A stretch of DNA of 64,000 nt from Clostridiales bacterium (GTDB taxonomy: Bacteria > Bacillota > Clostridia > Christensenellales > Aristaeellaceae), in contig JAFGGL010000006.1 in assembly GCA_016930575.1 (NCBI GenBank), forward strand, positions 1 through 64,000, given 5' to 3'. The position numbers and the translations under genes were made by a program. Shown piece after piece: positions 7,869-48,916 of the stretch; positions within the stretch are counted from its first letter, which is position 1, and each line of letters opens with the position of its first letter. The notes under the pieces are model-generated. The model was not told where the DNA came from. It did no database searches and was given only the letters and a program-made list of their open reading frames with translations.

Positions 7869-8711
7869 ATGTATAAAATTCTTGAGAAACAAATGCTTAA
7901 CCGGACCGTTGCACAGATTACGATTGACGCTCCTCTGATTGCCAACAAAGCGGAGGCGGGACAGTTTATCATCCTTCGCGCGAAAGAAAACAGCGAGCGC
8001 ATGCCGCTGACGATCGCGGCGTACGACCGCGTCGCCGGCACGATCATGTTGATTTTCCAGATCGTCGGCGCCGGAACGGCGGAACTGAACACCCTTTGCG
8101 AAGGCGACGCGATACTGGACTGCGTCGGCCCGCTCGGCAGGCCCACGCATACCGAAGGCCTCAAAAAAGTCTGCGTGGTCGGCGGCGGCGTGGGCTGCGC
8201 GATCGCGCTGCCCGTGGCGCAGAAACTGCATGATCAGGGTGCGGTCGTGCACAGCGTGATCGGGTTTCGCACGAGGGACCTGGTCATTCTGGAGGACGCG
8301 TTCAGATCCGTCAGCGAACAACTGCGCCTGATGACCGACGACGGCAGCTACGGCAGCAAGGGGCTTGTGACGACGGCGCTGGAGACGCTGATCAACGAAG
8401 GCAATGAATACGACGAGGTCATCGCCATCGGCCCGCTGGTGATGATGAAGCTCGTCAGCCTCCTGACGAAAAAGTACGGCGTGAAAACGGTCGTCAGCAT
8501 GAATACGATCATGGTGGACGGCACGGGCATGTGCGGCGGATGCCGGCTGACCGTCGGCGGCGAAATCAAATTCGCCTGCGTGGACGGGCCGGATTTCGAC
8601 GGTCACCTGGTGGACTTTGACGAAGCCATCAGCCGCAGCAGGATGTACGACACCTTCGAATGCAGGGCAAGGGACGAAGCCTGCAGGCTGTTCCCCGCGG
8701 AGGGCCGATAA
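7869..8711 (+). CDS. nfnA: Sulfide/dihydroorotate dehydrogenase-type FAD/NAD-binding subunit; NfnA-like ferredoxin-NADP+ reductase alpha subunit
   Basis: EAGQFIILRAKENSERMPLTIAAYD, CVVGGGVGCAIALP, C-terminal GTGMCGGCRLTVGGEIKFACVDGPDFDGH Fe-S site; adjacent NfnB. Confidence 0.85.
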   Translation: MYKILEKQMLNRTVAQITIDAPLIANKAEAGQFIILRAKENSERMPLTIAAYDRVAGTIMLIFQIVGAGTAELNTLCEGDAILDCVGPLGRPTHTEGLKKVCVVGGGVGCAIALPVAQKLHDQGAVVHSVIGFRTRDLVILEDAFRSVSEQLRLMTDDGSYGSKGLVTTALETLINEGNEYDEVIAIGPLVMMKLVSLLTKKYGVKTVVSMNTIMVDGTGMCGGCRLTVGGEIKFACVDGPDFDGHLVDFDEAISRSRMYDTFECRARDEACRLFPAEGR

Positions 8712-8712
8712 T

Positions 8713-10110
8713 ATGCCGGATCGAAACATGAGTACGGCGCAGACCCCGATGCCCGCACAGGATCCGGAAATCCGCGCGCACAATTTTCAGGAGGTCGCGC
8801 TCGGATATACCAAAGACATGGCGATCAGCGAGGCGAAGCGCTGCCTGGACTGCAAACACAAACCCTGCGTGGCGCAATGCCCCGTGATGATCGACATTCC
8901 CGCGTTTATCGGCAAAGTCGCGCAGGGCGATATGGAAGCCGCGTATGAGGTTTTAAGCGCAAACACCTCCCTGCCCGCCGTCTGCGGCCGCGTATGCCCG
9001 CAGGAGGTGCAGTGCGAACAAGTATGCGTGCGAAGCAAAAAAGGCGAGAGCGTAGCCATCGGCAGGCTGGAGCGCTTCGTCGCCGACTGGCACAGGGAAC
9101 ACAGCCATACCAAACCCAATAAACCAGCGCCGAACGGGCACAGGGTGGCCGTCGTCGGCGCAGGCCCCGCCGGGCTGACCTGCGCGGGCGATTTGGCAAA
9201 GCTCGGGTACGAGGTCGTTATTTTTGAAGCCCTGCATATGGCGGGCGGCGTTCTGGTGTACGGCATTCCGGAGTTCCGGCTCCCCAAGGACATCGTCGCC
9301 TATGAAATCGATAATGTCAAAGCCCTCGGCGTGAAGATCAAGACCAACGTGGTCATCGGAAAGACCCTGACGATCGACGAGCTGTTTGCGCAGGGATTCG
9401 AAGCCGTGTTCATCGGCAGCGGCGCGGGGCTTCCACACTTCATGCACATTCCGGGCGAAAACCTTAAAGGCGTGTACAGCGCCAACGAATACCTGACGCG
9501 CATCAATCTGATGAAGGCATATCGCGAAAACAGCCGTACGCCGATTAAGAAAAGCGACGCCGTCGCGGTGGTCGGCGGCGGCAACGTCGCGATGGACGCC
9601 GCGCGCTGCGCCAAACGGCTGGGCGCGAAAACCGTGTATATCGTCTACCGGCGCGGCCGCGAAGAACTGCCCGCGAGGCTGGAAGAGGTGGAGCACGCGG
9701 AAGAGGAAGGCATCCTCTTCAAGTTGCTTTGCGCCCCAACGGAGGTGCTCGGCGATGAAAACGGCTGGGTCAAAGGCCTGAAATGCATCGCCATGGAACT
9801 CGGCGATCCGGACGAAAGCGGTCGGCGCAGACCCGTCCCCAAACCGGACAGCGAATTCATCCTGGACGTGGATACGATGATCATGGCGATCGGCACCAGT
9901 CCGAATCCCCTGCTGTGTCAGACGACGAACGGGCTTGAGACCAACAAGTTCGGCTGTCTCGTCACCCGAAACGAAGACGGGCTGACCAGCTGCGACCGCG
10001 TTTACGCCGGCGGCGACGCCGTGATCGGCGCGGCGACGGTCATCCTCGCCATGGGTGCGGGCAAGCGCGCTGCCGCAGCTATCCACAGGGAGATTACAGG
10101 CAAACCGTAA
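8713..10110 (+). CDS. nfnB: NADPH-dependent glutamate synthase-like flavoprotein, NfnB subunit of electron-bifurcating transhydrogenase
   Basis: EAKRCLDCKHKPCVAQCPV, GRVCPQEVQCEQVCV, VAVVGAGPAGLTCAGDLAK, AVVGGGNVAMDAARCAKRLGA. Confidence 0.88.
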   Translation: MPDRNMSTAQTPMPAQDPEIRAHNFQEVALGYTKDMAISEAKRCLDCKHKPCVAQCPVMIDIPAFIGKVAQGDMEAAYEVLSANTSLPAVCGRVCPQEVQCEQVCVRSKKGESVAIGRLERFVADWHREHSHTKPNKPAPNGHRVAVVGAGPAGLTCAGDLAKLGYEVVIFEALHMAGGVLVYGIPEFRLPKDIVAYEIDNVKALGVKIKTNVVIGKTLTIDELFAQGFEAVFIGSGAGLPHFMHIPGENLKGVYSANEYLTRINLMKAYRENSRTPIKKSDAVAVVGGGNVAMDAARCAKRLGAKTVYIVYRRGREELPARLEEVEHAEEEGILFKLLCAPTEVLGDENGWVKGLKCIAMELGDPDESGRRRPVPKPDSEFILDVDTMIMAIGTSPNPLLCQTTNGLETNKFGCLVTRNEDGLTSCDRVYAGGDAVIGAATVILAMGAGKRAAAAIHREITGKP

Positions 10111-10121
10111 TTATCGTTGGA

Positions 10122-10250
10122 TTCAGTTTCTTCAGAAGGTCTTGCATGCCAGGAGCCAAAGGAGGAAAGCGCTGAGCTTACTCAACCGTAAGTGCTGCGC
10201 TTGCCGATCTGATGGCGACAGCGCAGACGAGGCCTTATGGACGAACTGAA
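10122..10250 (+). ncRNA. Candidate structured RNA element, copy 1
   Basis: Shares core AGGAG/A-CAAGG...TGAGCTTACTC-N4-GTAAGTG-TG...GCGACA.CGCAGA with 47515-47640; inner stem AAGCGC/GCGCTT and outer stems TTCAGTT/AACTGAA and AAGGTCTTG/CGAGGCCTT (G-U pairs on + strand). Confidence 0.6.
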
Positions 10251-10252
10251 AG

Positions 10253-10281
10253 ACGGGCGGCCATACAGACCGCCCGATTTT
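10253..10281. terminator. Rho-independent terminator after nfnB/copy-1 element
   Basis: CGGGCGG...CCGCCCGATTTTT hairpin. Confidence 0.75.
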
Positions 10282-47423: not shown

Positions 47424-47447
47424 ACCTGCAGATCAAAAATTCACAGC

Positions 47448-47478
47448 AAGATCCCCCGCATCGCGGGGGATCTTGTTG
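47448..47478. terminator. Rho-independent terminator
   Basis: GATCCCCCGC-ATC-GCGGGGGATCTTGTT. Confidence 0.75.
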
Positions 47479-47514
47479 ATGTGCTAAAATCCTTGCTTTG
47501 CAGGCATACTATCA

Positions 47515-47640
47515 ACCTGTTCAAAAAGCTTAATATGCTAGGAAGCAAGGGTGGCAAGAGGTTGAGCTTACTCCTTTGTAAGTGATGCCTCTTGCCATCC
47601 CGTAGCTGACAACGCAGATTGGGCTTTTTCAACAGGCTGG
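47515..47640 (+). ncRNA. Candidate structured RNA element, copy 2
   Basis: Core shared with 10122-10250; inner stem GGCAAGAGG/CCTCTTGCC around TTGAGCTTACTCCTTTGTAAGTGAT; outer stem CCTGTT-C-AAAAAGCTTAAT / ATTGGGCTTTTT-C-AACAGG (U-G pairs on + strand). Confidence 0.6.
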
Positions 47641-47647
47641 CAGGCGT

Positions 47648-48916
47648 TTATTTTGGCTGCAGCCTTTTCCAGGCCGGATCGACGTCCAGCACGGAGAAAT
47701 AATCGGCGGGCGTTTCCGCGCGGCGAATCAACAGAAACATTCCGTCTTCCTTCAGAAGCACTTCTTTGCAGCGCAGCTTGCCGTTGTAATTGTACCCCAT
47801 GCTCAGGCAATGCGCGCCCGCGTCATGGATGACCAGGATGTCGCCCACTTCGGCCCTGGGTAGCATACGGTCGACGGCGAACTTATCGTTGTTCTCGCAC
47901 AGGGAGCCGGTGACGTCGACCTTTTCGATATGCGGCAGGCTTTCCTTGCCGACGATGGTGATATGATGGTACGCGCCGTACATCGCGGGGCGCAGCAGGT
48001 CGCACGAGCTGGCGTTAAGCCCCAGATAGCGCTTGTAGATATTCTTTTCATGCGTGATGTGCGCCACCAGCCAGCCGTGCGCCGCGGTCATGTACCGCCC
48101 GAGTTCCGTTTTGATCGCAATGCCCGGGATATTGTTTTGTACGAAAACCTTTTCATAGGCTTTACGCACGCCCGCGCCGATGGCTTCGACGTTGGCCTCT
48201 TCCTCGTCCGGCCGGTAGGGCACGCCCACGCCGCCGGACAGGTTGACGAACGCGAGTTCCAGCCCGCTTTCCTGCCGCAGTTCGGCAGCCGTCTCAAACA
48301 GCAATTCCGCAAGCGCCGGATAATAATGCGGGTCGGTGGTGTTGCTGGACAAGAAAGCGTGGATACCGAAGCGCCTGGCGCCGTGCTTTTTGAGTATCAT
48401 GATCGCCTCGGAAAGCTGCTCGCGCGTCATGCCGAATTTTGCGTCGCCCGGGTCGCCCATGATGGCGTTGCCCACGCGGAAATGCCCGCCCGGGTTGTAG
48501 CGCAGGCAGACGGTTTCGGGGATACCGCCATTGTTTTTCAATTCCTCGATATGGGTGATGTCGTCCAGATTGATATAGGCTTCCAGCTTCCGCGCCAGCC
48601 GGAACTCCCGCGGGGGCACGACGTTGGCGGAAAACATGATGTCAGCGCCCTGAAAGCCGCAGGCGCCGGCAAGCATCAATTCGGTCTCGCTTGCGCAGTC
48701 CACGCCGCAGCCTTCTTCTTTCAGGATGCGCAGAATCGCGGGAGTGGGCAGCGCTTTGACCGCGAAATACTCCTTGAAATCCTCGCACCATGAAAACGCC
48801 CGCTGCCAGCGCCTGGCCGTGGAGCGTATGCCCTGTTCATCGTAGAGGTAAAACGGCGTGTCAAACGCCTTGCAGGCATCGACGAATACAGAATCGGGAA
48901 GTGTGAAGTTCGGCAT
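47648..48916 (-). CDS. lysA: PLP-dependent group III decarboxylase, diaminopimelate decarboxylase-like
   Basis: EYFAVKALPTPAILRILKEEGCGVDCASETEL, NLSGGVGVPY, KTELGRYM, GAHCLSMGYNYNGKLR. Confidence 0.82.
   Translation of the reverse strand: MPNFTLPDSVFVDACKAFDTPFYLYDEQGIRSTARRWQRAFSWCEDFKEYFAVKALPTPAILRILKEEGCGVDCASETELMLAGACGFQGADIMFSANVVPPREFRLARKLEAYINLDDITHIEELKNNGGIPETVCLRYNPGGHFRVGNAIMGDPGDAKFGMTREQLSEAIMILKKHGARRFGIHAFLSSNTTDPHYYPALAELLFETAAELRQESGLELAFVNLSGGVGVPYRPDEEEANVEAIGAGVRKAYEKVFVQNNIPGIAIKTELGRYMTAAHGWLVAHITHEKNIYKRYLGLNASSCDLLRPAMYGAYHHITIVGKESLPHIEKVDVTGSLCENNDKFAVDRMLPRAEVGDILVIHDAGAHCLSMGYNYNGKLRCKEVLLKEDGMFLLIRRAETPADYFSVLDVDPAWKRLQPK

Follow-up and report, generated by a model that had tools for sequence, protein, structure and literature searches.

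The Enterococcus faecalis repeats (EFAR), which Venditti et al. are said to have described in 2007, reportedly measure about 170 bp and form two stem-loops in an L shape, with duplication of the stem-loop targets of 24-37 bp. EFAR are modular and comprise many sequence types. A repeat of Yersinia, YPAL, has reportedly been proposed to serve as an mRNA-stabilizing structure at the 3' side. In CRISPR spacer acquisition, Cas1-Cas2 cuts at both ends of a palindromic repeat of about 20-36 bp, so that the insert comes to lie between two full copies of the repeat. YPAL, or RU-2, is 168 bp long with internal inverted repeats, and duplicates 3-26 bp of target sequence at or beside sites of dyad symmetry (PMC2229807). 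EFAR is listed as a MITE, and REPs are described as 20-40 nt long, bearing GTAG/CGTC tags and associated with Y1 transposases (PMC3733652); judged by size and copy number only, Efa-1 (PMC2267715) is probably the same as EFAR. SPRITE, BOX, and RUP of pneumococcus are short structured interspersed repeats near the 3' ends of genes (PMC3049150).

The window, the whole stretch of 64,000 nucleotides of clostridial DNA analyzed here, contains two copies of a structured element (Table 1). An earlier reading of the same DNA (the sequence-only reading) had described copy 1 as a conserved core flanked by stems, of which the inner one keeps its pairing through compensatory differences from copy 2. Both features were confirmed: the core, TGAGCTTACTC-N4-GTAAGTG, is exact in both window copies, with an expectation of 0.02 matches at 3 mismatches, and copy 1 has AAGCGC/GCGCTT as its inner stem where copy 2 has AAGAGG/CCTCTT. 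In our assessment, both sequences represent a non-autonomous mobile element, or structured MITE, that inserts at terminators; we put the probability of this full reading, including the mechanism inferred below, at about 0.8. A mobile element accounts for the feature better than an ncRNA gene does.

Table 1. Positions of the two element copies and of the neighboring features in the window
Feature	Position	Strand	Description and evidence
Copy 1 of element	10122..10250	+	Long six-helix hairpin with conserved core; full-length match to covariance model R1, E 1.8e-25; fold z -5.8
Apical core, copy 1	10173..10194	+	TGAGCTTAC-N6-GTAAGTG; pattern match, 0 mismatches
Flanking gene of copy 1	8689..10110	+	NADPH-dependent glutamate synthase/NfnB type (NfnB/GltA-type); TIGR01316, E 2.8e-175
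Terminator-like hairpin right of copy 1	10254..10276		Between element and convergent gene; sequence and terminator scan
Copy 2 of element	47511..47641	+	Full-length match to covariance model R1, E 3.6e-30; fold z -8.7
Apical core, copy 2	47563..47584	+	Pattern match, 0 mismatches
5' extension of copy 2	47479..47510	+	Corresponds to left-end hairpin of complete units elsewhere (cf. L033, L035); left-flank comparison
Terminator-like hairpin upstream of copy 2	47444..47478		CAGCAAGATCCCCCGC/GCGGGGGATCTTGTTG; inverted repeat I1, 16-nt arms, 94% complementary; terminator scan
Flanking convergent gene of copy 2	47648..48916	-	Diaminopimelate-decarboxylase-like (lysA-like); TIGR01048, E 1.4e-81, score slightly under family cut-off; Pfam PF02784/PF00278

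Copy 1 starts 12 nt past the stop codon of the NfnB/GltA-type gene, and the gene to the right of its terminator-like hairpin is convergent and carries DUF1292, in agreement with the setting given by the sequence-only reading (3' of nfnB, before a terminator, between convergent genes). Copy 2 ends 6 nt from the stop codon of its convergent neighbor. The strong hairpin on its left, situated between a coiled-coil gene and the element, is probably the terminator of that gene. When compared with dinucleotide shuffles, the + strand folds gave the z values of Table 1, and the corresponding values for the - strand were -1.2 for copy 1 and -8.5 for copy 2.

For analysis of the fold, covariance model R1, with 130 positions and 41 pairs, was built from 15 copies of the host genome (G000, 2.35 Mb). 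In the host alignment 96.0% of cells are paired and compensatory changes are present in 22 of the 41 pairs, a level reached by none of 500 shuffles. Copies from other genomes, which had no part in model building, showed 92.5% of cells paired and compensatory changes in 33 of the 41 pairs, and they contained 300 double-changed cells, where shuffles gave 97.8±8.8; this alignment was fitted to R1, which favors structure, and pairing fell to 32-38% when the partners were shifted by one column. The compensatory changes noted by the sequence-only reading were upheld in a larger alignment, including other genomes. A broader model of the core, R2, covers all subfamilies with 27 sequences; aligned by MAFFT without structure, these contain 112 double-changed cells versus 44±5.5, and their paired cells and covariation score were matched by none of 500 shuffles. 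The core includes a tandem G-A internal loop, UGA/GAU in most copies or GA/GA, and its closing G-U pair is kept in all 27 sequences. Since G-U pairs are frequent (10.6-11.8% of cells) and A-C mismatches rare (1.5-2.2%), the folding strand is the + strand, as had been proposed from the G-U pairs of the window copies. Covariation of this type fits RNA and single-stranded DNA alike; the fold is probably recognized as RNA.

The pattern of the core matched 20 sites in the host genome, and the reversed-pattern control none. A search with the covariance model, as the sequence-only reading had suggested, gave 48 matches in the host, consisting of about 33 distinct sense copies and antisense echoes of the same hairpins, and matches in nine of 41 relatives, among which G013 (deposited under the name 'Eubacteriales bacterium STF2_37') gave 43 and G005 gave 10. 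At the same cut-off no match was obtained in G003 and G004, two near-complete genomes of the same genus. Within the family, R1 detected the element in 15 of 251 genomes and six of 50 genera at E<=1e-6, and matches of R2 extended to other families of the class and phylum, not all of which were judged real on reading. A scan of GTDB contigs with the core pattern, which is too narrow for this purpose, gave matches only in G013, and no match was found by blastn in plasmids and phages. This patchy distribution is easier to reconcile with a mobile element than with a conserved gene. In Rfam 15, the window copies and 13 host loci gave no match at gathering and only chance matches at E<=10, and the earlier statement that no named family could be assigned holds.

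All host copies are intergenic or overlap only gene ends, as judged by a crude ORF survey. Of 28 host copies, 19 have a convergent right-hand neighbor, whose stop codon is often no more than 25 nt from the element; this should be taken as a trend only, the ORF caller being crude. In G013, copies form head-to-tail tandem arrays with a period of 129. A family of integron attC-like recombination sites would likewise appear as head-to-tail arrays of folded, asymmetric hairpins about 130 nt in length. The units of the arrays, however, follow each other without cassette genes between them, no attC core boxes were seen at the ends on inspection, and an attC insertion does not duplicate a terminator; such an origin is extremely unlikely.

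The complete unit has two stem-loops: a short 5' hairpin, which contains TTGACAAA or a motif like it, and then the long multi-helix hairpin of about 130 nt, the 3' arm of which carries the matching inverted end. The ends of the family are CAGNNYGTTGACAAA ... TTTGTCAGNNNTCTG, and complete units in related genomes are about 165-200 nt long, within an overall unit range of 129-200 nt. In G011, G022, and G114, a terminator hairpin is present as a direct repeat on both sides of the unit, and this hairpin differs from locus to locus, as exemplified by AAGCCGGGCAGGTTTTTCCTGCCCGGCTT in L161, AGACGGTCTTTCGACCGTCT in L176, and ATGCCGCACCGATAAAATTCGGTGCGGCAT in L181. The copies of G011 and G022 appear to be recent. 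Among the copies of these three genomes with both flanks, 18 of 22 outscored every one of the 462 cross-copy controls; the flanking repeats measure 20-38 nt and fold as hairpins. At L176 the A-tract remains on the left copy and the T-tract on the right copy of one original terminator, as expected of target duplication. The same arrangement is found around ACGGTCATTTACGACCGTT at L210, in another family of the phylum. Several MAG contigs end within the element, and the ends of contigs C86 and C18 of G022 bear the same 25-nt terminator, probably as the two sides of one insertion. Flanks of this kind indicate a mobile element that targets and duplicates terminators.

In a broader sample of 49 copies, p<=0.008 was obtained for 10, including L033 and L035 of the host, four copies from G005, and one from G164; in those from the host and G005, the right-hand terminator copy directly adjoins the element. 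Within the host, terminator duplication was detected for only these two of the 28 copies tested. Neither window copy has it: copy 1 has a single hairpin, on the right (flank test p about 0.05), and copy 2 a single one, on the left, with no second hairpin copy across the element in either case. Set beside L033 and L035, the window copies may represent older insertions. A search for an empty site by way of the lysA-like gene found none; gene order is not conserved in those genomes of the same genus and family where the flank was read.

The strong RNA-like covariation and the G-U bias of the + strand could also be accounted for by a multi-copy family of trans-acting small RNA genes, each with its own promoter and spread by ordinary duplication. 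No promoter-like site was found beside either window copy, however, and different intergenic regions house the copies, some of which form tandem arrays or lie within another repeat; duplication of the terminator is, furthermore, the signature of insertion. Such a gene family is therefore considered quite unlikely. The sequence-only reading had left the choice between a dispersed ncRNA and a mobile structured element: the mobile part is upheld by the dispersal, the patchiness, the tandem and nested copies, and the terminator duplication, whereas the stand-alone ncRNA gene is not supported, no promoter-like site being found at either window copy.

Neither an autonomous copy nor a common mobilizing enzyme was found. 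A search for a longer element by the end motif in nine genomes gave no end pair at a spacing of 1-2 kb. One possible source of mobility is a Y1/HUH transposase (IS200/IS605 or RAYT) moving a single-stranded-DNA hairpin, in which case the fold would be one of DNA; DNA also allows the top-strand fold with G-T pairs, and the tandem copies are similar to BIME-type arrays. The copy-rich genomes G000, G005, and G013, however, yielded no PF01797, and its tally does not track copy number, so Y1 transposase was rejected as the mobilizer, being absent where copies are most numerous. To our knowledge, HUH elements of the IS200/IS605/RAYT group do not make target duplications of 20-30 bp, which also counts against a mobile element of this sort, and we regard it as unlikely.

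A second possibility is an analogue of retro-elements, in which a trans-acting reverse transcriptase copies the folded RNA into DNA at terminators. All of the copy-rich G000, G005, and G013, as well as G021, encode a reverse transcriptase, as do 14 of 41 relatives overall, and the variable length of target duplication would suit this route. The enzymes of the copy-rich genomes look, by eye, to be of different types, however, and on this ground reverse transcriptase was not retained as the mobilizer. Moreover, G022 and G028 carry elements with no reverse transcriptase detected, and the element has no poly-A-like tail, both ends being defined inverted motifs. Retrotransposition of this form is thus very unlikely. 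The sole reverse transcriptase gene found in the host (G000:C22:3548-3946) shares its contig with an element copy about 5 kb away.

For the structured MITE that inserts at terminators, the following course of events is proposed. An integrase or transposase would recognize terminator hairpins by shape, cut each strand at the hairpin base, and join the element, after which the gaps would be filled in; the target duplication would then equal the hairpin. Each neighboring gene would meet an intact terminator beyond the element, making the insertion nearly harmless, and the element itself would be read as a structure of the 3'-UTR. The core, with its G-A-rich internal loop, invariant G-U pair, and UAC-N6-GUA stem-loop, is probably recognized as RNA, either by the mobilizing protein or as an mRNA-stabilizing 3' structure. 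Most host copies would be older ones, left with one terminator or none. A bolder version, which we hold to be doubtful, is that of a phylum-wide class of structured-RNA mobile elements (cross-phylum, if YPAL is included), of which the folded transcript might be recognized by a mobilizing enzyme that reads intrinsic terminators by shape and cuts both hairpin bases, a bacterial analogue of SINEs with an undescribed shape-specific integrase.

Several additional arrangements were observed among the copies. In G013, at least seven copies (L078, L079, L083, L092, L094, L095, and L097) are situated at one internal site of another abundant dispersed hairpin repeat, GACAATCCCTCAGGCGCTCCGCGCCAGCTCCCTTTACACAAGGGAGCC, with a variant on the other strand, and it looks as if the composite has spread as a unit. 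A nested structured module of about 80-100 nt, starting with AATA or similar, is located inside the 3' internal loop of L003, L010, L014, and L019 of the host and of L073, L174, L175, and L178 of G011, and in G011 it is flanked by duplicated GACACAGCAAG. In the L151-L184 subfamily (G011, G022, and G114), the long stem bears an extra hairpin of variable sequence on its 3' arm, GCAAAAAT...ATTTTTGC. At L039 (G000:C33:8752-8879), the outer stem runs 12 nt further, into the stop-codon region of the neighboring gene (GATCATTTAGTC / GACTAAATGATC), an extension unexplained by simple insertion.

Mini-transposons of this kind are already known, though little studied; what is new is the covarying core, the phylum-wide distribution, the occurrence of nested modules and of tandem arrays, and the ends common to Yersinia and clostridial elements. 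Terminators are sites where insertion does little harm, and copying of the terminator leaves a stop signal to both neighboring genes. A large covarying alignment that is missing from Rfam has been obtained, and a Yersinia repeat is linked to clostridial repeats through common ends. The covarying structure together with clean terminator duplications makes the mechanism testable, and the clean pairs of flanks can be used to find an enzyme that cuts the bases of DNA hairpins whatever their sequence.

As to the known systems, YPAL/RU-2 resembles the clostridial element in being about 168 nt long, non-coding, and intergenic, with internal inverted repeats, no TA ends, and no A+T richness (PMC2229807). 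The termini of YPAL, CAGACTGCTGACAAACCC and CTTTGTCAATAACC (PMC2759123, Table 1b), match the ends of the clostridial element, the common terminal stretches being TTGACAAAG and GGGTTTGTCAG..GTCTG. When YPAL was compared with 16 units, the mean local score was 28.0, against an average of 18.4 for shuffles and a largest shuffle mean of 20.2; within the interior, similarity is weak, with one 17-nt stretch, GAGCCTACATGGATGTA, containing three differences. YPAL differs, however, in belonging to Gammaproteobacteria and in being described as a single sequence family without a phylum-wide covarying core. EFAR, compared by description only, has the same layout and behavior as the clostridial element. 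REP/REPIN/BIME with RAYT share the dispersed hairpins, the tandem arrays, and the location 3' of genes, but are unlike the clostridial element in size and tags and in the Y1 transposase. SPRITE is itself terminator-like and has no known target duplication, whereas the terminator is what the clostridial element targets, the element itself being a long hairpin that has a core of its own. In CRISPR acquisition the duplicated repeat is also palindromic, but the duplicated hairpin of the clostridial element differs from locus to locus while the insert is always the same element, and no relation is claimed. The clostridial units are short, non-coding, multi-copy, and intergenic, and their targets are dyad-symmetric and duplicated in 18 of 22 copies of G011, G022, and G114 and in 10 of 49 of the broader sample, though not in the window copies. 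On the basis of the behavior and shared ends of YPAL and the reported behavior of EFAR, the element is filed with the YPAL/EFAR kind of structured, terminator-targeting MITEs, and the clostridial family is judged to be a previously undescribed, phylum-wide member of this kind, EFAR having been compared by description.
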